Shown here one piece after another: positions 1,378-48,651 of a stretch of DNA of 64,000 nt. Every line of letters starts with the position of its first letter. Position 1 is the stretch's first letter. Both the position numbers and the translations under genes were made by a program. This DNA comes from Pseudomonadota bacterium (GTDB lineage: Bacteria; Pseudomonadota; Alphaproteobacteria; Dongiales; Dongiaceae), in assembly GCA_021792365.1 (NCBI GenBank), contig JAJYUT010000009.1:124001-188000 (forward strand). Direction: 5' to 3'. A model generated the notes under the pieces. It saw nothing but the letters and a program-made list of their open reading frames with translations, did no database searches and was not told the origin of the DNA.

Positions 1378-4143
1378 GTGCTCACTCGTATCTGGATGGC
1401 TGTGACCGCAGCGATCGCCATCGTCATCGCGACGATGGCCGCGCTGTGCACGCTCCAGTATGAACAGGTTCTGTCGCAACTGGTCCGCCAGCGGCTCGGC
1501 GTCACAGTCGAAGCAGCGGCCGGCCCGTTCCGTTCGGTTGTCGAACTCGGCCTGCCGGCGTCTATGGTGCGCAATAGCGTGGACTTGCTGTCCAGAGCGC
1601 GTGAAAGCGATCCGGCGATCAGCGAGGTTCGATTGTTCAACCCCTCGGGAATCGTCGTCGCATCGACGCGAGAGGGCGAAGCCAAACCGATGCGGCCGGA
1701 CGTGCTGCGCGCCCAAGGGGAGACGCCTGCCGAGCGCTGGAGCCTGGAACTCGACGACGTGCTGATCAGCGGCATATCGATCCGGAACGACGCCCATGCG
1801 AATGTCGCAGGCATCGCCGCCTATTACCCGATCAGCGAACTGACAAAGCCGGCCCGACAGGTAGCCATCGAGATCTCGCTCGTTGGAGCCGGCCTTTTCG
1901 TTCTGTTCTCGACCCTGGCGGTGCCGGCATTGCGATTGCGGCTCAGAGGCGTCCGTGCCGCGCTGGCCCAGCTCGATGGCGTCGCGGCGCGCCTGCGCGA
2001 AGGCCGAGGGTCGGGCGAGGCTGTCGAGCGCCGTCGACTTGGGCTGCTCGAAGAGGATTTCGACCTGCTGACGAGTGGTCTCGATGAGGCTGCGCGGTGC
2101 TACGAAGCTGGCCTCGGCCTGCTGCAGGAGGCGCCGGGCAAGACCGCGTGGACCCGCTCCGGCCGCCGCGTGCTGATCGCAATACCGGAAACGCGTCTTG
2201 CGCGTCGGTTCGCCCGCCGGCTCGCGCCTCTTATCGCGCTTCTTGTCGTTGCGGCGATGCTAATGCTGGGAATTTTCTCATATCTGCGCATCGAGCAATC
2301 GCTGACGCCGGAATTTGAGCGGCGACACGAATTGATCGGCTCGATCGCGCAGGCGGCGATCGCCAGGACGCTGGAGGCCGGCGTTCCGCTCGACGGCCTC
2401 GTCGGAGCGGGCGAGTATTTCGAGCGGCTGCTGGAGGATTTCCCGGAAGTCTCGTATTTCGCGATCACGACCGACCGGCCGCTGGTTGAAGTGGGCGCGC
2501 ACATCGGTGGAAACGCCTCGGTCCTGCCCATAACCGCCGCAGGCGGCAAGACCGCGTCCATTGTAACCGAGAGCAATCCGCAATATCTCGGCGAGCAGTT
2601 CCGCACCGTGGCGCTCGATCTTGCCGTGATCGTGATAGTGGCCGTGCTGTTCTCGTTCGAGCTGGTTGTCCTGGTGATGGGTGGGTCCGTGACCGGCCCG
2701 TTCGATCGCCTTCAGCACCTGGTCGACCTGCAGGCGGCGGGCGACTTCACGAAGCGGCTGAGCAGACGCGGCCGCGGCGTGATCGATCAGATCGGCGCCA
2801 TCCTGTCGGCGCGGGCCGTGGAGCTCAACGCGAGGCTTGCTGCCCGTACCGCGCCGGCGCAAGCTGAGAGCGACTTCCCGAAAATTCACCTCACTGGCCG
2901 ACCCCCCGACGTGATGCGATTCTGCAGTGTCGGCGATGTCCGCCTCGCGCTGTTCCTCTTCGCGGCCGCCGATCAACTGCCGCTTTCATTCTTTTCGCTC
3001 TTCGCGCGCGACGTCGAAAATCCGTTCTCCTGGATTGACCAGGGCGTGGCAAGCAGCCTGCCGCTGGCGGCGTATCTCCTCGCTGCCTTGTTCGGCGCCG
3101 GAGCCGCAAGACCGCTCTCCGGCCGGTTCGGCCATCGCGGACAATATCTTGCGGCAGCGGTGGTGACGGTCCTTGCCAATATCGGATTGAGCCTTGCGGG
3201 GAACCTGGTCGAGGTCGTCGCTTATTCTGCGCTCAACGGCATCGGCTTTGCCGTCGCCTCGCTAGCCTGCCAGGACTACGTGATCGACCGTCTGCCCAAG
3301 GAGGAGCGGTCGCGATCGATCGGCTTCGTCTCGGGTGCCCTGTTCGCCGGCATCTTCGCCGGCACGGCGCTTGGCGGTGTCATGGCCGACCGGATCGGGC
3401 AACGCCCGGTCTTTGTCGTTGCGGCGGCCCTGGCCTTGGCTTCCGCCCTGCTGATCCTCTGGCTGATGCCCATCGGCGACCGGCCCGGCAAGGACGATCC
3501 GATCGAGCCGATGGAGACGTTCTCGCTCAATCTCGTCGCGCCGCTCGGCTCGTTCGGATTTGCGGCGCTGGCGCTGGGCATCGTAGTTCCACAGATCGTC
3601 GCCGACCAGGTGTTCGTCTCTTATCTCATTGCGCTGGCGCTCGATGCGCTACAGGCCTCGATCGCCGATATTGCCCGACTGATGATGATCTATTTCCTGG
3701 CGGTGATCATAGCCGGCTACGTGGTGGCGAAGCTTCCTCCGTCAATGGCGGCACCGGCGCCCTTGGTGCTCGCCGCTTCGCTGATCTCGGGCGTGGCGCT
3801 CCTCACGCCGGTTTTTTGGCCGACGCCGGCCGGCTACTTTCTTGCGGCCGTGGGGGCAGGCTTCGGACACGGGTTGTCTCGCGGCCCGGTCGCCGATCTG
3901 GTCGTGCGGTTCGCCGAAGGGCCTCTGGCGCATCTGGGAACGAGCTCGGTTCTGGGCGCGTCGCGCGTGCTCGAGCGCGGCAGCAGCGTCGCCGGCCTTC
4001 TAGTGATCGGCGCACTTACGGGGATCGTCGGCTATGCAGGGGCAACCGCCGCAATTGCCGCCATGCTGCTCGGCGGAGCGGCGCTGTTCGCGCTCTCCCT
4101 GGCAGCACCATTTCATCATGGGATCGCAAAGCAAGGAGATTAG
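1378..4143 (+). CDS. Sensor-HAMP-MFS fusion transporter
   Basis: A 921-residue membrane protein with a GTG start. In order: membrane segment 1-26; extracytoplasmic region about 27-160; membrane segment about 163-188; cytoplasmic, charged and probably coiled segment about 190-275; membrane segment about 281-303; second extracytoplasmic region about 304-408; membrane segment about 411-438; HAMP-like linker about 439-490; then from about 515 to the end a full set of some 12 MFS helices, including the loop motif GGVMADRIGQRP at the half-way point. The sensor half looks like two membrane-anchored Cache-type modules as found in receptors and cyclases, here placed in front of a transporter. MFS proteins are normally about 400 residues, so about 500 extra residues precede the transporter. 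It is followed after 3 bases by a periplasmic binding protein gene. I infer ligand-gated or ligand-reporting transport. Domain limits are by eye. Confidence 0.8.
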   Translation: MLTRIWMAVTAAIAIVIATMAALCTLQYEQVLSQLVRQRLGVTVEAAAGPFRSVVELGLPASMVRNSVDLLSRARESDPAISEVRLFNPSGIVVASTREGEAKPMRPDVLRAQGETPAERWSLELDDVLISGISIRNDAHANVAGIAAYYPISELTKPARQVAIEISLVGAGLFVLFSTLAVPALRLRLRGVRAALAQLDGVAARLREGRGSGEAVERRRLGLLEEDFDLLTSGLDEAARCYEAGLGLLQEAPGKTAWTRSGRRVLIAIPETRLARRFARRLAPLIALLVVAAMLMLGIFSYLRIEQSLTPEFERRHELIGSIAQAAIARTLEAGVPLDGLVGAGEYFERLLEDFPEVSYFAITTDRPLVEVGAHIGGNASVLPITAAGGKTASIVTESNPQYLGEQFRTVALDLAVIVIVAVLFSFELVVLVMGGSVTGPFDRLQHLVDLQAAGDFTKRLSRRGRGVIDQIGAILSARAVELNARLAARTAPAQAESDFPKIHLTGRPPDVMRFCSVGDVRLALFLFAAADQLPLSFFSLFARDVENPFSWIDQGVASSLPLAAYLLAALFGAGAARPLSGRFGHRGQYLAAAVVTVLANIGLSLAGNLVEVVAYSALNGIGFAVASLACQDYVIDRLPKEERSRSIGFVSGALFAGIFAGTALGGVMADRIGQRPVFVVAAALALASALLILWLMPIGDRPGKDDPIEPMETFSLNLVAPLGSFGFAALALGIVVPQIVADQVFVSYLIALALDALQASIADIARLMMIYFLAVIIAGYVVAKLPPSMAAPAPLVLAASLISGVALLTPVFWPTPAGYFLAAVGAGFGHGLSRGPVADLVVRFAEGPLAHLGTSSVLGASRVLERGSSVAGLLVIGALTGIVGYAGATAAIAAMLLGGAALFALSLAAPFHHGIAKQGD

Positions 4144-4146
4144 GGC

Positions 4147-5154
4147 ATGAGAAATCCGGGAAAGCTTGCCGCCCTCGCAATCGTGCTTGCCGCATTCGCG
4201 CTCGCCGTCGCGCCGGCGACCGCCGCGCCCAAGCGCGTGATGATGGTGGTCTGGATCGGCTGCGAGGATGTGTGCCGCGGCGTGCAGGACTACTTCAAGG
4301 AGAACGGCATCGACGTCGACTTCTTGGTTCGGGATGCGGCGCAGGACAGCTCGAAGTTTCCCGGATTCGTCCAGGAGGCGCGGGCGATGAAGGCCGATCT
4401 CGTTCTCACCTGGGGCACCAAGACCACGCTCGGGATCGTGGGAACGCTTGCCGACCGCGACGATCCCACCATGCTGAACGATATCCCGGTCGTTTTCACC
4501 GTCGTTGCCGATCCGGTAGGCACCAAGATCATCGAATCCTACGACAAGACCGGCCGGCCCAACGTGACGGGAACGCGCAACCGCGTGCCCGAGGAGGTGA
4601 ACATCAAGAGCATCCGGCGATACCTGCCCGGCTTTAATCATCTGGGCGTGTTGTACGATCCAAGCGAGGTGAATTCGGTCGCCAAGGTCGAGGAGCTCAA
4701 CGGCCTCGCAGGCCCGCTGGGCTTCACGCTCGACGTCCTGCCGCTCGGGCTCGATGCGAGCGGCGCGCCGACAATCGATTCGATCAAGCCGCAGATGGAC
4801 AAGTTCAAGGCCGCGGGAGCGCAGTTCATCTATCTCGGCTCGAGCACGTTCCTTGAGAAGCAGCAGGATGCCTTCACCGGCGCCGCTGTCGACAGCGGGT
4901 TGCCGGTCCTTGTGTCCTACGAGCACATGGTGACCGAGTCCCAGGCGCTGATGTCGGTCGCCGCGCGCGACTACGACGTCGGCAAGCTCGCCGGACAGCA
5001 GGCCGCGAAAATCCTCGTCGACGGGCGGAAGCCGGGAGATCTGCCGGTGTTGCCGATGGAGGAGTTCGCCTATCTGGTCAACATGAAAGTTGCCAAGAAA
5101 CTCTCGCTCTATCCCCCCGTCGAGTTCCTGCAGTTCGTGGAAACGGTCGAGTGA
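4147..5154 (+). CDS. ABC_sub_bind (TrpX-like) periplasmic binding protein
   Basis: 335 residues with a clear Sec signal peptide (hydrophobic stretch LAALAIVLAAFALAVAPATAAP, cleavage after about residue 27). The rest matches the two-lobed ABC_sub_bind/COG2984 family: VLTWGTKTTLGIVGTLAD, IPVVFTVVADPVGTKII, and the C-terminal block with GQQAAKILVDGRKPGDLPV. Family members bind tryptophan, tyrosine or other small molecules for ABC importers. The start has AAGGAG at 4132-4138 and lies 3 bases after the sensor-MFS stop, so the two are surely co-transcribed. No ABC permease or ATPase gene is nearby; an ABC_sub_bind protein paired with an MFS sensor protein is unusual and suggests it presents ligand to the sensor domain. 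Confidence 0.9.
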   Translation: MRNPGKLAALAIVLAAFALAVAPATAAPKRVMMVVWIGCEDVCRGVQDYFKENGIDVDFLVRDAAQDSSKFPGFVQEARAMKADLVLTWGTKTTLGIVGTLADRDDPTMLNDIPVVFTVVADPVGTKIIESYDKTGRPNVTGTRNRVPEEVNIKSIRRYLPGFNHLGVLYDPSEVNSVAKVEELNGLAGPLGFTLDVLPLGLDASGAPTIDSIKPQMDKFKAAGAQFIYLGSSTFLEKQQDAFTGAAVDSGLPVLVSYEHMVTESQALMSVAARDYDVGKLAGQQAAKILVDGRKPGDLPVLPMEEFAYLVNMKVAKKLSLYPPVEFLQFVETVE

Positions 5155-5215: not shown

Positions 5216-5249
5216 GGGCGGCGCTAAGGCGCCCTGCCCTGTTTCTTTT
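5216..5249 (+). terminator. Terminator after the sensor-MFS/binding protein operon
   Basis: A 9-bp stem in two blocks (GGGC and GGCGC on the left arm; GCGCC, a CT bulge and GCCC on the right), TAAG loop, then TGTTTCTTTT. It separates the two-gene operon from the cyclase gene. Confidence 0.75.
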
Positions 5250-5300: not shown

Positions 5301-7484
5301 ATGAGGGCTCCTCGAATCGGGGCTGCGATCTTGCGCAAGGAAGCGATACCGGTCGACGAGTCAGGGAACGCGCACGTGGTCGAAGATAGGGCGGCGGCGC
5401 TCGCCGAACTGGCGCGGCGCACGGCGATGCTGGACGCCATCTCCTATGGCGCGGCCCAGATCATCGGCGCGGAGGACTGGCGCGCCGGCATCCAGGAGAT
5501 GCTCAACCGCCTCGGCCGCGCAACCGAGGTCAGCCGCGTCACCCTGTTCGAGATCCACCAGGGCGCCGACGGCCAGCCGGTCGAGACCTGCCGCTATGAC
5601 TGGGCGGAGCCCGGCCTGCCCCGGCTCAGCGGCGATCCGCGCTATCGCGACATGCCGCTGGTGGAGCACGAAGGCGGCCAGCTCGGCGACTGGCTGGCGG
5701 CGCGGCGCCGCGGCGAGATCGTGCAGGCGACGCTGAAGGACGTGACCGGCGAGACCCGCAGGACCTTCCTCGAGCACGGCACGCAGAGCTTCATCTCCGT
5801 CCCCATCATGCTGCGTTCCGGCGTGTGGGGCTTCCTCGGCCTCGACGATTGCCGCAGCGAGCGCGTCTGGCACACGCTGGAGATCGACGTGCTGAGGACC
5901 GCCGCCGCTCTCGTCGCCGGCGCGCTGGAGCGCGCCGCCTCCGATGAGGCGCTGCGCAACAGCCGCGAGCGCTACGCCCTGGCGGCGCGCGGCGCCAATG
6001 ACGGGCTGTGGGACTGGGACCTGACGGCCAACCGCACCTATTTCTCGCCGCGCGTCTACGAGATCCTCGCTCTGCCCGAAGGCACCCTCGCCTCGCCCAA
6101 GGCCTTCGCCGGGCAGCTGATGCAGCGCGACGCAGTGGTCTGGCGCAAATACCTCGCCCACTGCATCATCGAGCGCCGGCGCACCTTCGAATTCGAGGCG
6201 CGGCTGCGCTCCAGCACAGCCCGGCCGGAACAGGACCCCGAACCGCACCTCCGGCCGTATCCCGGGCCGCACCCCGAAGCGGGCCAGGCGGCCTCGCGCT
6301 GGGTGGTGATCCGCGGCCTCATCGTCTACGAGGAGCACGGCGCCGCGGCCCGCCTGGTCGGCTCGCTGCGCGACATCACCGACCGCAAGCGCATGGAGCT
6401 CGACCTGCGCGCCAGCGAGACCCGCGTGCGCGCCATCCTCGACACCGCGTTCGATGCCATCATCACCATCGGCGAGGCCGGCCGCATCGTGGAGTTCAAC
6501 AACGCCGCGACGCGCATCTTCGGCCATGCCCGCGCCGACGCGATCGGCCAGCCGCTGGCCGAGCTGATCATTCCGCCGATCTACCGCGCCGCGCACAAGG
6601 AGGGCCTGCGGCGCTATCTGGAGACCGGCCAGCATTCGGTGCTCAACCGCCTGATCGAGGTCGAGGCGCTGCGCGCCGACGGCACGCACATCCCGGTCGA
6701 GCTCTCGATCACCGAGGTGCCGGTCTCGGAGGGGCGCCTGTTCACCGCCATGCTGCGCGACATCTCGGAGCGCAAGCGCTTCGAGGCGCAGCTCGCCACT
6801 GCCGAGCGCCAGCGCGCGCAACTGACGCGCCACTTCTCCCCCAACATGGTGGAGGAGCTCATGCAGGCCGGCGGGCGCATCGGCGTCGCGCGCACCCAGC
6901 CGATGGCGGTGCTGTTCTCCGACCTCTACGACTACACCGAGATGAGCGCGACCATGTCGGGCGAGCAGGTGATCGAGCTGCTGCGCGCGTTCCACGCCAT
7001 CGTCGAGGACGCCGTCTTCAACCACGGCGGCACCCTCGACAAGTATATCGGCGACGGCCTGATGGCGACCTTCGGCACGCCGACGCCCGGCCCGATGGAC
7101 GCCACCAACGCGATCGCCGCGACGCGCCAGATGCTGCGCGAGCTCGCGCGCTGGAACCAGCGCCGCGAGGCCGCCGGCGAGCGCCGCATCCGCGTCGGCG
7201 TCGGCCTCCATTTCGGCCAGGCCACCCTGGGCGACGTGGGGACGGAGCAGCGCTTCGAGCTCACCGTCGTCGGCGACACCGTCAACATCGCCAGCCGCAT
7301 CGAGCAGATGAGCCGCCTCGTCCGCATGGCGGTGGTGGCGAGCGACGACATCATCCGCCAGGCCGTCGCCGAATGCGGCCAGGAGGCTGCCGAGGGCTTC
7401 CGCGACCTCGGCGAGCACCGGGTCCGCGGCCATCCCGCCCTGATCCGCCTCTGGGGCCTCAGCGCGGAATCGCAACGTCCATAG
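5301..7484 (+). CDS. Class III adenylate cyclase with GAF and two PAS domains
   Basis: 727 residues, soluble. An N-terminal GAF domain spans about 40-215 (FISVPIMLRSGVWGFLGLDD), a first PAS about 222-365 (ANDGLWDWDLTANRTYFSPRV, ending RDITDRKRMEL), a second PAS about 370-490 (ILDTAFDAIITIGEAGRIV, ending RDISERKRFE), a short linker, and a cyclase catalytic domain about 530-720. The two metal-binding aspartates are in LFSDLYDY and KYIGDGLMATFG, and the purine/transition-state block is TVVGDTVNIASRIE, which fits ATP as substrate. It would make cAMP in response to a cytoplasmic signal sensed by GAF/PAS; the ligand is unknown. The PAS-1 loop has an inserted Pro-rich stretch. It lies 146 bases after the sensor-MFS operon but behind a terminator. 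Confidence 0.92.
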   Translation: MRAPRIGAAILRKEAIPVDESGNAHVVEDRAAALAELARRTAMLDAISYGAAQIIGAEDWRAGIQEMLNRLGRATEVSRVTLFEIHQGADGQPVETCRYDWAEPGLPRLSGDPRYRDMPLVEHEGGQLGDWLAARRRGEIVQATLKDVTGETRRTFLEHGTQSFISVPIMLRSGVWGFLGLDDCRSERVWHTLEIDVLRTAAALVAGALERAASDEALRNSRERYALAARGANDGLWDWDLTANRTYFSPRVYEILALPEGTLASPKAFAGQLMQRDAVVWRKYLAHCIIERRRTFEFEARLRSSTARPEQDPEPHLRPYPGPHPEAGQAASRWVVIRGLIVYEEHGAAARLVGSLRDITDRKRMELDLRASETRVRAILDTAFDAIITIGEAGRIVEFNNAATRIFGHARADAIGQPLAELIIPPIYRAAHKEGLRRYLETGQHSVLNRLIEVEALRADGTHIPVELSITEVPVSEGRLFTAMLRDISERKRFEAQLATAERQRAQLTRHFSPNMVEELMQAGGRIGVARTQPMAVLFSDLYDYTEMSATMSGEQVIELLRAFHAIVEDAVFNHGGTLDKYIGDGLMATFGTPTPGPMDATNAIAATRQMLRELARWNQRREAAGERRIRVGVGLHFGQATLGDVGTEQRFELTVVGDTVNIASRIEQMSRLVRMAVVASDDIIRQAVAECGQEAAEGFRDLGEHRVRGHPALIRLWGLSAESQRP

Positions 7485-10590: not shown

Positions 10591-10924
10591 CTGCCGCGCC
10601 GCTTGCCACGTGAGAAATCCGCAATCGCCTTAGGACGTTGCCGGGCAGGTCGTCCGCACGCCCCCGCCAATCGGGAAAGCGGCGGCGCAGGCGGGCGTCG
10701 ATGGACCGCCCGGCCCGGATTTGTCGCTGTCGTTTAATCGGGTGTCGTGATTGACGTCTTGCCCCTCCGCCGATAACGTAACAATGATCAACTAAAGTGC
10801 CGCGCCGCAAGGAAATGCGCGGACCAGACACGTCGCCGGAACCCGGTCGCCTCCGCGATCCGTTTCGGGCCTCGGACGGCTGAGTTCGGCGAACACGCCA
10901 ACTATAAACAGGGAGGGTATGCAC

Positions 10925-12622
10925 ATGCGTTCCGGTTCGGGCGGCAAGGACCGCCATCATCCAGCCATTCCGCGCCTCGTCGATGCGCTCGAGCAGCGCA
11001 AGCTCGATCGGCGCGAGTTCCTGCGCACGGCCACGCTGCTCGGCCTCGGCGCGCCGGCGGCGTATGGTATTGCCGGCAAGATCCTGGGCGAGCCCGCCAT
11101 CAAGGCGGCCCAGGCCCAGACGCCCGTGAAAGGCGGCATCCTGCGCGTCGGCATGCGCATCCCGGCGCTCGACAGCCCGCACATCTTCTCCTGGGTCTAT
11201 GACTCGAACGTCGTGCGCCAGACCAACGACTATCTCTCGCGCACCCAGTCGGACGGCGTCACCGTTCCCTACCTGCTCGAGAGCTGGGCGCCGAGCGAGG
11301 ACCTCAAGACCTGGACGCTCAACCTGCGCAAGGGCGTGAAATGGTCCAATGGCGAGGACCTGGTCGCGGATCACGTCATCTGGAACCTCCAGCGCTGGTT
11401 CGATCCGAATGTCGGCTCGTCGACCCTGGGCCTGTTCAAGGGCTTCCTGCTGAAGGATGTCGATACCGGCGAGAAGAACGAGGACGGCTCGCCGAAGATG
11501 ACGACCGACCTCTGGGACGCCAACGCGATCGAGAAGGTCGACGACCACACCATCCGGCTCAACGGCTCTGTGGCGCAGCTCGCGGTTCCGGAGAACCTGT
11601 TCCACTACCCGGCCTTCATCCTGCATCCGAAAGACGAAGGGAAGTACGGCGTCGGCGCAATCGGCACCGGGGCCTATGAGCCGGCCGAGATCGAGGTCGG
11701 CAAGAAGGTCGTGCTGAAGCGGCGCGGCTCCTACTGGAAGGAGGGCGGCTACCTCGACGAGATCCATTTCGTCGATCTGGGCGACGATCCGGCCACCAAG
11801 CTGGCGGCCCTCGCCTCCAAGCAGGTAGACGGCCTCTACGATGCCGACATCAAGATCTACGAGAGCATCAAGAAGATCCCCGGTCTCGAGTTGCACCAGA
11901 TCACGACGGCGCAGACCGCGTGCGCCCGTATGAAGATGGGGCATAAGCCGTTCGATGATCCGCGCGTGCGCAAGGCGCTCCGCCTAGCGACCGACAGCGC
12001 CAGCATCCTGAAGATCGCCTATCGCGATCTCGGCGCGCCGGGCGATCACCATCACTGCTGCCCGGTTCATCCGGACTATGCGGAAGTGCCGGTGATGAAG
12101 CGCGACATCGAGGCCGCGAAGAAGCTGCTGGCCGAGGCCGGCCATCCGAACGGCATCGAGGCCGAGCTGCATTGCAAGAAGGACCCGGACTGGGAGCCGA
12201 CCGCCTGCCAGGCGCTGATCGAGCAGTGGGCCGAGGCCGGCATCAATGTGAAGCTCAACGTCATGCCGGGCGCCCAGTACTGGGACGTCTGGACCAAGGT
12301 GCCGTTCGGCTTCACCACCTGGACCCATCGTCCGCTCGCGATCATGGTCCTCGGCCTTGCCTATCGCACCGGCGTGCCGTGGAACGAGAGCGACTACTCC
12401 AACCCCAAGTTCGACGAGCTGCTGACCAAGGCGGAAGGCATCATCGACCTCGAGGAGCGCAAGAAGGTGGTCCGCGAGCTCGAGCTCATCATGCAGGAGG
12501 ACGGCACCATCGTCCAACCGCTGTGGCGTGCCAGCTACCAGCCCTTCACCAACAAGCTGAAGGGCTACAAGCCGCACCCGACGGAGTACTACTTCTTCGA
12601 GGATGTGTGGATGGAAGCGTAA
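10925..12622 (+). CDS. Family-5 (peptide/opine type) ABC substrate-binding protein, Tat-exported
   Basis: 565 residues. The N-terminus carries a Tat signal: DRREFLRTATLLGLGAPAAYG. The mature part is a SBP_bac_5 protein (LLESWAPSEDLKTWTLNLRKGVKWSNGE; C-terminal EEDGTIVQPLWRASYQPF-type region), the family that binds oligopeptides, nickel, opines and other cationic solutes in the periplasm. ATG 10925 is preferred to ATG 10919 because GGAGG at 10912-10916 is 8 bases from the former and only 2 from the latter. No permease or ATPase gene adjoins it, so its importer must be elsewhere. It ends at a strong terminator and is divergent from the DddP-like gene. Confidence 0.92.
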   Translation: MRSGSGGKDRHHPAIPRLVDALEQRKLDRREFLRTATLLGLGAPAAYGIAGKILGEPAIKAAQAQTPVKGGILRVGMRIPALDSPHIFSWVYDSNVVRQTNDYLSRTQSDGVTVPYLLESWAPSEDLKTWTLNLRKGVKWSNGEDLVADHVIWNLQRWFDPNVGSSTLGLFKGFLLKDVDTGEKNEDGSPKMTTDLWDANAIEKVDDHTIRLNGSVAQLAVPENLFHYPAFILHPKDEGKYGVGAIGTGAYEPAEIEVGKKVVLKRRGSYWKEGGYLDEIHFVDLGDDPATKLAALASKQVDGLYDADIKIYESIKKIPGLELHQITTAQTACARMKMGHKPFDDPRVRKALRLATDSASILKIAYRDLGAPGDHHHCCPVHPDYAEVPVMKRDIEAAKKLLAEAGHPNGIEAELHCKKDPDWEPTACQALIEQWAEAGINVKLNVMPGAQYWDVWTKVPFGFTTWTHRPLAIMVLGLAYRTGVPWNESDYSNPKFDELLTKAEGIIDLEERKKVVRELELIMQEDGTIVQPLWRASYQPFTNKLKGYKPHPTEYYFFEDVWMEA

Positions 12623-12643
12623 GCGCCATCGCCACCAACGCAA

Positions 12644-12675
12644 ACGGCGGCCCCCAAAGGGCCGCCGTTTTTTTT
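12644..12675 (+). terminator. Rho-independent terminator after the binding protein gene
   Basis: Perfect 10-bp stem (12644-12653 with 12659-12668), five-base loop, then eight T residues. Confidence 0.92.
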
Positions 12676-12778
12676 GCCTTCAATCCCCGCGCTTCGTCAG
12701 GTCCGATCATCCTCTTGCAGGGAGATCGGAGCACGACGCCTCGACCGGCGCGGGTCGGGTCGGGTAGTGTCTCGCCGC

Positions 12779-13939
12779 ATGCCCGTCCTCAACGATACGA
12801 TGGAGACAAGGAACCGCAACCGGGCGCTGGCCGCCGTCATCGGCACGGCGTTCGGCGTCGGCGTGGCCGTCGGGGCCATCGTGCCGCTGCTGTCGCTGAT
12901 CCTGGAGCACCGCGGGTTCGACGCGACGGCAATCGGGATCAACGCCGCGATGTTCCCGCTCGGCGCGGTCGGCTTCAGCTTCCTGGTGCCGCGCATCGTC
13001 GCTTGGCTTGGCCTCTACAACGCGATCCTCGCCAGCATCACCCTGACCGCCGCGCTGATGCTGCTGTTCCCGGCGACGGACAGCTATGTCGCCTGGTGCG
13101 CAATCCGCCTCGCGATCGGCTGCATCGGCGTGGTCCACTGGATCGCGAGCGAGACCTGGATCAACATGCTGGCGCGCGACGCGAGCCGCAGCCGGGTGAT
13201 GGCGGTCTACGCGACGGTCATGGCCGGCGGCTTCGTCTGCGGGCCGCTGCTGCTGTCGTGGACGGGCCTCGAGGGCTGGCCGCCCTTTCTCGCCGTCGCC
13301 GCGGCGTCCCTCTGCGCGCTGGTGCCGGTGCTCCTGATCCGCTCGCGCCCCCCGGCGCTGGGCGAGAAGATGCACCTCGACCTGTTCCGGGTCATCCGCG
13401 CGGTGCCGATCGTGATGGCGGCGGCGCTGGTGGCCGGCTTCGTCGATGCCTCCCTGTTCAGCCTGATCCCAATCTACCAGGTGCGCGCCGGCCACGCGGA
13501 GCAGCTGGCGGTGCTGAGCCTCAGCGTTTTCATGGCAGGCAACCTCGTGCTGCAATACCCGCTGGGCTGGATCGCCGACCACACCAGCCGGCGGCAGGCC
13601 GCGATCGTCACGGCGGGCATCATCACCCTCGGCGCGATCGCCTATCCGCTGATGTTGCCCGATTTGGGCCCGTCCTTCTGGCTCATGATGTTCGTCTGGG
13701 GCGGGGTGAGCTGGGGCATGTATACGCTGGGCCTGGCGCTGCTGGGCGAGCGCTTCCAGCCGGCGCAACTGGCGGCGGCCAATGCCGCCTTCGTGATGGT
13801 GTACGAGGTGGGATCGATCGCCGGCCCGGTGGCCTCCGGTGCCGCGCTCGATCGCTGGCCAGTCTACGGCTTGCCGATCTCGGTGGGCGCGGTGGCCGCG
13901 CTCTTCATCCTCGTCGCGATGATTCGGCGAGGACGTTGA
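12779..13939 (+). CDS. MFS transporter (YcaD-like)
   Basis: About 386 residues and 12 predicted helices. The segment HWIASETWINMLARDASRSR between helices 4 and 5, followed by YATVMAGGFVCGPLL, resembles YcaD-type MFS proteins. The start is uncertain: ATG 12779 and ATG 12800 are in frame, and an earlier frame extension would run into the terminator. Substrate unknown. Convergent with the Rieske oxygenase gene. Confidence 0.85.
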   Translation: MPVLNDTMETRNRNRALAAVIGTAFGVGVAVGAIVPLLSLILEHRGFDATAIGINAAMFPLGAVGFSFLVPRIVAWLGLYNAILASITLTAALMLLFPATDSYVAWCAIRLAIGCIGVVHWIASETWINMLARDASRSRVMAVYATVMAGGFVCGPLLLSWTGLEGWPPFLAVAAASLCALVPVLLIRSRPPALGEKMHLDLFRVIRAVPIVMAAALVAGFVDASLFSLIPIYQVRAGHAEQLAVLSLSVFMAGNLVLQYPLGWIADHTSRRQAAIVTAGIITLGAIAYPLMLPDLGPSFWLMMFVWGGVSWGMYTLGLALLGERFQPAQLAAANAAFVMVYEVGSIAGPVASGAALDRWPVYGLPISVGAVAALFILVAMIRRGR

Positions 13940-47781: not shown

Positions 47782-48651
47782 GTGAGGGGCCTGATCGTGG
47801 TTTTGTTCGACGGCGTCGCCGTGCGTTATGGCGCTGGGCCGGAAGTGCTGCGCGGCATCTCCTTCACCCTGGCGCCCGGCTCGTTCCATTTCCTGGTCGG
47901 GCCAAGCGGCGCGGGCAAGTCCTCCCTGCTGAAGCTGATCTATCTCGGCCTGCGCCCCGCCGCCGGCCGGGTCGAGCTGTTCGGCCGCAACGTCTCGGTC
48001 CTGAAGCGCTCGGATTATCCCGCCATGCGCCGGCGCATCGGCGTCGTGTTCCAGGATTTCCGCCTGATCGACCATCTCTCCGCCATCGACAACGTGGCGC
48101 TGCCTTTGCGCATCGCCGGCGTGCGCGAGAGCGACATCAGGCGTCACGTGCCGGAGCTGCTGGCCTGGGTGGGCCTCAAGCATCACCTCGACGCCCTGCC
48201 CGCGACCCTCTCCGGCGGCCAGCAGCAGCGCGTGGCGATCGCGCGCGCCGTCATCTCCCGGCCCAGCCTGCTGCTGGCCGACGAGCCGACCGGCAATGTC
48301 GATGACGGCATCGGCGTGCGGCTCATGTACCTGTTCGAGGAGTTGAACAAGATGGGCACGACGGTGGTGATCGCCACCCACAACGAGGGGCTCGTCGGTC
48401 GCTTCACCCATCGCCAGCTCCGCATCGCCAACGGCACCGTGCGATTGGTCGATCCCGCCGCCGCGATGCCGCTCGCGCAATCCCAGGCCGCTACGCAGCC
48501 CCAGATCGACATGCGGCATGGGACGGCTGCCCAGCCCGAGCCTGCCGCACAGGGCGATGCCGGCGCGCGGCAGATGCAGGCGGGGCGGGAATACGCCGCC
48601 GATGAGCGTGATCCCGGAGAGCCGCATCGCACCTGGGAGGAGCCGGCCTGA
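47782..48651 (+). CDS. ftsE: Cell-division ABC ATPase FtsE
   Basis: 289 residues. Walker A GPSGAGKSSLLK, Q-loop VFQDFRL, signature LSGGQQQRVAIARA, Walker B LLLADEPTGNVD, H-loop ATHNEGL. FtsE with FtsX activates peptidoglycan hydrolases at the septum. The core ends about residue 225; a 65-residue hydrophilic Ala/Gln/Glu-rich tail is unusual. GTG 47782 or GTG 47797 may be the start. One base separates it from ftsX. Confidence 0.95.
   Translation: MRGLIVVLFDGVAVRYGAGPEVLRGISFTLAPGSFHFLVGPSGAGKSSLLKLIYLGLRPAAGRVELFGRNVSVLKRSDYPAMRRRIGVVFQDFRLIDHLSAIDNVALPLRIAGVRESDIRRHVPELLAWVGLKHHLDALPATLSGGQQQRVAIARAVISRPSLLLADEPTGNVDDGIGVRLMYLFEELNKMGTTVVIATHNEGLVGRFTHRQLRIANGTVRLVDPAAAMPLAQSQAATQPQIDMRHGTAAQPEPAAQGDAGARQMQAGREYAADERDPGEPHRTWEEPA

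Follow-up and report, generated by a model that had tools for sequence, protein, structure and literature searches.

Several membrane receptors read a periplasmic binding protein: in LuxP-LuxQ, TorT-TorS and MBP-Tar, a receptor with a Cache/PAS-like or helical sensor takes up the signal and passes it on through a HAMP-type relay. We describe here a two-gene unit at positions 1378-5154 of a 64,000-nucleotide stretch of contig JAJYUT010000009.1, from an alphaproteobacterium of the family Dongiaceae (the window; all window features given below are on the forward strand). It encodes a 921-residue fusion of a Cache-HAMP receptor with a major facilitator superfamily (MFS) domain and, immediately downstream, a secreted substrate-binding protein (SBP). 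The unit would share with the three systems above the design of an SBP-read membrane receptor, but its predicted output is an MFS domain where theirs is a kinase or chemotaxis domain, its receptor is a paralogous pair and its SBP belongs to PF04392. Since a kinase output is absent, we do not file the unit with the SBP-reading receptors LuxPQ and TorTS.

Whole transporter domains joined to signalling modules in one chain are known from CbrA and CrbS, which are SLC5-STAC-histidine kinase fusions (PMC9100948, PMC5715377), and from an ammonium sensor kinase that carries an Amt domain (PMC5764959). The polarity of these proteins is opposite: their transporter is the input, their kinase the output and no SBP takes part, whereas here Cache and HAMP modules stand N-terminal to the MFS domain and there is no kinase. 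A transporter-like fold also serves in sensing in S-components, called the first prokaryotic transceptor case in an article that does not mention the MFS (PMC11109136); the fold, however, is a different one. The VtrA/VtrC co-component systems (PMC9214523) resemble the unit in forming a two-protein receptor from overlapping genes and in their link to a secretion system, but they combine a lipocalin-like sensor with a DNA-binding output, and the folds are unrelated. The outputs reported in a 2016 survey of Cache domains are chemotaxis proteins, kinases, c-di-GMP enzymes, phosphatases, cyclases, Ser/Thr kinases, transcription factors and ion channels; neither the MFS nor any transporter is mentioned in the text of that survey (PMC4822843). 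No named system of this form was found in the open-access literature (subscription papers were not covered). Every part of the unit comes from a known family; what is new is the combination and its wide conservation.

A conserved unit of receptor-MFS protein and binding protein

The receptor-MFS gene (1378-4143) is one uninterrupted open reading frame (ORF) with a GTG start, in which the series of transmembrane (TM) helix, Cache, TM helix and HAMP occurs twice and is followed by a 12-TM MFS domain. The SBP gene (4147-5154, 335 aa) begins after a gap of 3 nt, with a Shine-Dalgarno-like AAGGAG (4133-4138) inside the end of the preceding ORF; its product has a signal peptide at residues ~1-27 by eye, matches ABC_sub_bind (PF04392, 97 bits) and belongs to a subfamily in which a GCExxC motif is conserved. 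An earlier note on this DNA had proposed both the 921-residue receptor-plus-MFS protein and the secreted binding protein three bases on, and both are confirmed. It had also been right to see neither an ABC importer nor a histidine kinase: no ABC-signature ORF occurs from 12 kb upstream until an ABC ATPase at 47782 of the window, and Pfam detects no HisKA, HATPase or receiver domain in either gene of the unit. Its label of the SBP as TrpX-like stands at the superfamily level and fails beyond it, as the protein reaches 103 bits against the curated cut-off of 390 for the NCBIfam TrpX model NF041285 and is thus not a TrpX member. The PF04392 fold is common to both, but here the ABC partner is missing and GCExxC is conserved. 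The solved PF04392 relatives (6hni, 3lkv, 3lft) do not settle the identity of the ligand, which, to go by the family, is perhaps amino-acid-like.

Conservation of the pair was assessed with the SBP alignment as the only query against 84,980 species genomes, so that the MFS partner was not selected for. Among the 80 named loci, a Cache-HAMP-MFS protein adjoins the SBP in 76; in most of these its gene immediately precedes that of the SBP and either overlaps it by 4 nt or ends a few bases before it. The two genes are convergent in L093 and L106, the Cache-HAMP-MFS copies of L095 and L102 are cut or frame-broken, and L138, L153, L165 and L166 have no such protein within the flank. The earlier note had made its coupling claim depend on homologues that neighbour the binding protein, and such homologues are the rule. 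This adjacency in an SBP-only search, together with the SpoIIE linkage described below, leads us to reject a chance neighbourhood. The unit is found in Alpha-, Beta- and Gammaproteobacteria, Thermodesulfobacteriota and Myxococcota, and its presence is patchy: in the family to which the window belongs, 2 of 17 genomes carry it, and none of the three congeners does.

A sample of 385 genomes drawn from the window's class contained 23 with a strong SBP match (E below 1e-70). The MFS protein is encoded in the same locus in 17 of these; in G082 the SBP and MFS genes are on separate contigs, with the SBP gene near a contig end. The other five (G065, G088, G204, G298, G375) have an MFS-less form, in which a ~360-aa Cache1-Cache2 protein that ends after Cache2 is encoded immediately 5' of the SBP gene. 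Neither HAMP nor MFS is present in that gene, and no MFS of the family was found elsewhere in those five genomes. The Cache pair and the SBP are thus kept together where the MFS domain is lost, which shows the SBP to go with the Cache pair.

The fused gene of the window is one of several arrangements. Most commonly, sensor module 1 is encoded by a separate gene of ~260 aa and sensor2-HAMP-MFS by a gene of ~690 aa, the two usually overlapping; the fused form occurs in 13 of the 80 loci (Mesorhizobium, Ensifer, Sneathiella, Oceanimonas, Marinobacter, Defluviimonas and others). The fused or split state changes 7 times across a maximum-likelihood tree (L087, one truncated row, being scored as split), on which the window protein groups with the Ensifer and Mesorhizobium fusions (support 99). 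This recurrence in several lineages rejects a sequencing error or a chimeric ORF, and the fusion is genuine. The architecture first described from the window is therefore real but only one of several fusions of what are usually two genes, a layout that had been missed. A single MFS-SBP ORF in L087, on a metagenome-assembled contig, was not relied on as a Rosetta-stone proof; the 4-nt overlap of the two genes in L088, a close relative, means that one indel would join them.

Sensor modules and MFS domain

Sensor module 1 (1378-2121, residues 1-248) is composed of a TM helix, an sCache domain, a second TM helix and HAMP-like helices, and sensor module 2 (2194-2844, residues ~273-489) of TM helix, Cache, TM helix and HAMP. 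Pfam returned no match for either extracytoplasmic module of the window protein, and HAMP stayed below detection; relatives match sCache_3_2, dCache_1 and HAMP, the last (PF00672) in 2 of 41 relatives (best 1.1e-6) and at 1.3e-11 in one paralogue. An AlphaFold2 model of module 1 (38 sequences, pLDDT 89.8) consists of a TM helix, a single Cache domain, a TM helix and two HAMP-like helices, with the sensor domains of WalK/YycG, CitA, DcuS and KinD as best PDB matches (Foldseek: 5is1, 2j80, 3by8, 4jgo). Prediction of the whole 921-residue protein, proposed in the earlier note as a check, gave one confident global model (56 sequences, pLDDT 92.0, pTM 0.89) that supports the receptor-MFS layout, with two Cache modules, 12 MFS helices and an AS1-connector-AS2 HAMP-like stretch C-terminal to each Cache. 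The arrangement is that of a Cache-HAMP receptor, the Cache fold lying between two TM helices and HAMP after the second. Pfam finds no known cytoplasmic signalling output domain in the chain, in which only the MFS domain follows.

Sequence comparison shows the two modules to be paralogues. Sensor1, where it has a gene of its own, aligns with the initial ~240 columns of the sensor2-HAMP-MFS profile, and sensor1 rows fell onto sensor2 in a full-set alignment, which was dropped for that reason. The pTM value and this paralogy suggest that the two Cache modules pair with each other.

The MFS domain (2932-4104, residues ~519-909) is assigned to the superfamily by its fold and by a match to MFS_1 (PF07690; residues 524-854, 81.7 bits against a cut-off of 33.4). 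By fold and by sequence, the nearest solved structures are VMAT, NorA and MdfA, all amine/drug:proton antiporters, with target-normalised Foldseek TM-scores mostly of 0.72-0.82. Residues R522, P562, G666, R767, R863, E866 and R867 are invariant in all 56 sequences.

Genomic neighbours and variant systems

A dCache-HAMP-SpoIIE phosphatase gene is present in the locus in 10 of 17 searched alphaproteobacterial genomes with the operon, and a nucleotide cyclase stands beside the unit in two. The SpoIIE genes of those ten loci are the ten best SpoIIE matches of the whole search, each scoring highest in its genome, and in G137, G261, G301 and G378 they are the sole SpoIIE of the genome, which puts the link far beyond chance. 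Anti-sigma-kinase-like ATPase genes adjoin several of them. In G301 and G378, sensor1' is accompanied by a protein in which sensor2'-HAMP continues into another sensor-HAMP stretch and then into a SpoIIE phosphatase; there the same split sensor pair has a known signalling output. The window genome has one SpoIIE, on another contig.

The loci with a SpoIIE neighbour are L171, L172, L176, L179-L183, L185 and L187, with SpoIIE fused to the sensor2' module in L171 and L187. A PanB/PEP-mutase-like protein (by eye, ~325 aa) is encoded between SBP and SpoIIE at L181:5674-6663 and L182:6949-7917, and ATP-grasp-like genes flank the SBP gene in L171.

A second recurrent neighbourhood is the type VI secretion system (T6SS). 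The unit is located inside a T6SS cluster (VgrG, DUF6931, TssA, Hcp, TssB or TssC) in 25 of the 80 loci, which form essentially one clade on the maximum-likelihood tree (2 changes); T6SS genes adjoin it in G287 and G031 too. It is possible that the unit is an unrecognised T6SS input. The window genome has no TssC, and the unit is not part of a T6SS cluster there. Taken together, the recurrent T6SS, SpoIIE and cyclase neighbours, which the earlier note had not seen, argue for signalling over nutrient uptake.

The T6SS loci, in which the three-gene form of the unit is set in a main T6SS cluster, lie within L124-L163 (for example L127:3997-14915 and L148:4031-14907) and come from marine Vibrionaceae, Oceanospirillaceae and Roseobacteraceae; many of these genomes have two TssC-like matches in tandem. 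Four loci (L121:8063-11897, L149:7954-11926, L156 and L157) carry a TAXI-type SBP (NMT1_3), a TPR-secretin and a pentapeptide-repeat protein beside the unit.

A divergent family with two sensors and an MFS domain without HAMP has a PF04392-like SBP adjacent or within ~4 kb (G031, G049, G095, G108, G163, G177). The five reduced operons with Cache pair and SBP but neither HAMP nor MFS, located at L167:6526-8648, L168:6071-8123, L169, L170 and L040, are without any cytoplasmic output. In Terasakiella pusilla (L132:46-7939), six genes stand in a row: sensor1', sensor2' with a short unrecognised membrane part, and SpoIIE, followed by the sensor1-MFS-SBP set.

Proposed mechanism and alternatives

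The earlier note's interpretation, a transporter gated by or reporting on a ligand that the binding protein presents, is supported in part. We give an even chance to a reading in which a split, pseudo-dimeric Cache-HAMP receptor recognises the SBP in its ligand-loaded state and has the MFS domain as its output. The secreted PF04392 protein would bind a small ligand in the periplasm and, once loaded, dock on the two non-identical paralogous TM-Cache-TM-HAMP modules, which would pair like the halves of an ordinary homodimeric Cache receptor. The ensuing change would be relayed by the HAMP bundle to the MFS domain joined to it, which would stand where a kinase, cyclase or chemotaxis domain is usually found. 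The MFS domain would thus be a regulated output with a transport cycle that the periplasmic signal switches. The SpoIIE phosphatase, cyclase and T6SS would, in many lineages, act in the same pathway. A wider proposal, put forward tentatively and at somewhat less than an even chance, is that a heterodimeric Cache-HAMP receptor reads a dedicated SBP, directly switches an MFS protein (as a receptor-gated transporter or a bacterial MFS transceptor) and controls T6SS and PP2C/cyclase signalling in several lineages, which would make it a categorically new class.

If true, the transporter would join the outputs that a Cache-HAMP receptor can drive, and the unit would represent a receptor-gated transporter, a third way in which an SBP works for a secondary transporter, or else a bacterial MFS transceptor. 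It would also be a candidate environmental input for the T6SS clusters found in marine Vibrionaceae, Oceanospirillaceae and Roseobacteraceae. The two- or three-gene cassette makes the question testable, and the natural MFS-less variants are built-in controls.

Several observations weigh against a receptor-switched transporter. The MFS copy of the window lacks the motif A/B transport signatures, which superfamily membership does not require: the motif-A Asp is absent and the motif-B Arg617, present in 48 of 56 sequences, is Ser. Likewise, Glu533 (47 of 56 sequences) is Gln. These losses make transport by the window copy itself uncertain, and it may not transport at all. Two genomes (G179, G276) encode a further sensor1'/sensor2'-MFS' pair, its MFS domain degenerate, 5' of a dCache-HAMP-class III cyclase. 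In the clade of the window, the two-gene unit has no conserved further neighbour. The SBP may bind the Cache modules, the MFS domain or both, and genomic linkage is no proof of physical coupling.

A first alternative is that the MFS domain is a non-transporting transceptor, a membrane receptor or relay that passes the Cache-HAMP-SBP signal to cytoplasmic SpoIIE, cyclase or T6SS components. The residue losses of the window protein, the degenerate MFS' paralogues in operons with a cyclase or SpoIIE as third gene and the strong linkage to SpoIIE genes all speak for such a relay. We nevertheless regard it as unlikely, since the motif-B Arg and Glu533 are retained in the majority of the family, the core residues of the MFS domain are invariant, this domain carries no cytoplasmic output domain and the pair of the window has no conserved cytoplasmic partner.

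An SBP-dependent secondary importer, in which the SBP hands its ligand to the MFS domain and the Cache modules are a docking scaffold, would constitute a third class beside TRAP and TTT, which are likewise secondary transporters with a binding protein of their own. The pairing of each MFS protein with one SBP dedicated to it, the tight translational coupling and the absence of an ABC partner are in its favour. The membrane subunits of TRAP and TTT, however, are unrelated to the MFS and have neither Cache nor HAMP, and the membrane protein found here is MFS_1, not DctM/DctQ or TctA/TctB. Such an importer is improbable given that the nearest MFS relatives are the exporter-type antiporters NorA, VMAT and MdfA, that five operons have SBP and Cache modules without MFS, that HAMP and Cache are signalling modules, and that the neighbours are T6SS and phosphatase genes rather than catabolic ones.

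Separate action of SBP and receptor-MFS protein, with an operon for common regulation only and a Cache pair that senses a different ligand directly, as Cache domains often do (for example in CitA and DcuS), is very improbable in view of the adjacency conserved across all five of the groups listed above and in the divergent HAMP-less family, and of the retention of Cache pair and SBP upon MFS loss.

Other features of the window locus

The receptor-MFS/SBP pair is set apart from the upstream TMAO/amino-acid permease by an intrinsic-terminator-like hairpin with U-run (1232-1261; -27.4 kcal/mol, z -4.8) 3' of the permease gene. With this strong terminator between them, and as the neighbour is not conserved, the permease was not adopted as a member of the unit. 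Downstream, a GAF-PAS-PAS-cyclase gene (5301-7484) was not adopted either: a weak terminator-like hairpin (5216-5239, z -1.6), followed by TGTTTCTTTT, stands between it and the SBP gene, and the cyclase gene is absent from clade relatives.

The permease gene itself (12-1208) scores 614 bits with NCBIfam TmaoPrem on a copy truncated by the window edge. The upstream cluster at L026:4058-13209 includes a TMAO permease and a glutamate-synthase-domain protein and, by eye, an amidotransferase, a glutamine-synthetase-like protein and an FAD oxidoreductase; the upstream cluster of L026 and the window probably serves methylated-amine use. A second orphan SBP beside an MFS gene is found at 10919-13939 of the window, where SBP_bac_5 (567 aa) is followed after 51 nt by MFS_1 (421 aa from the first start codon), with no adjacent ABC partner.

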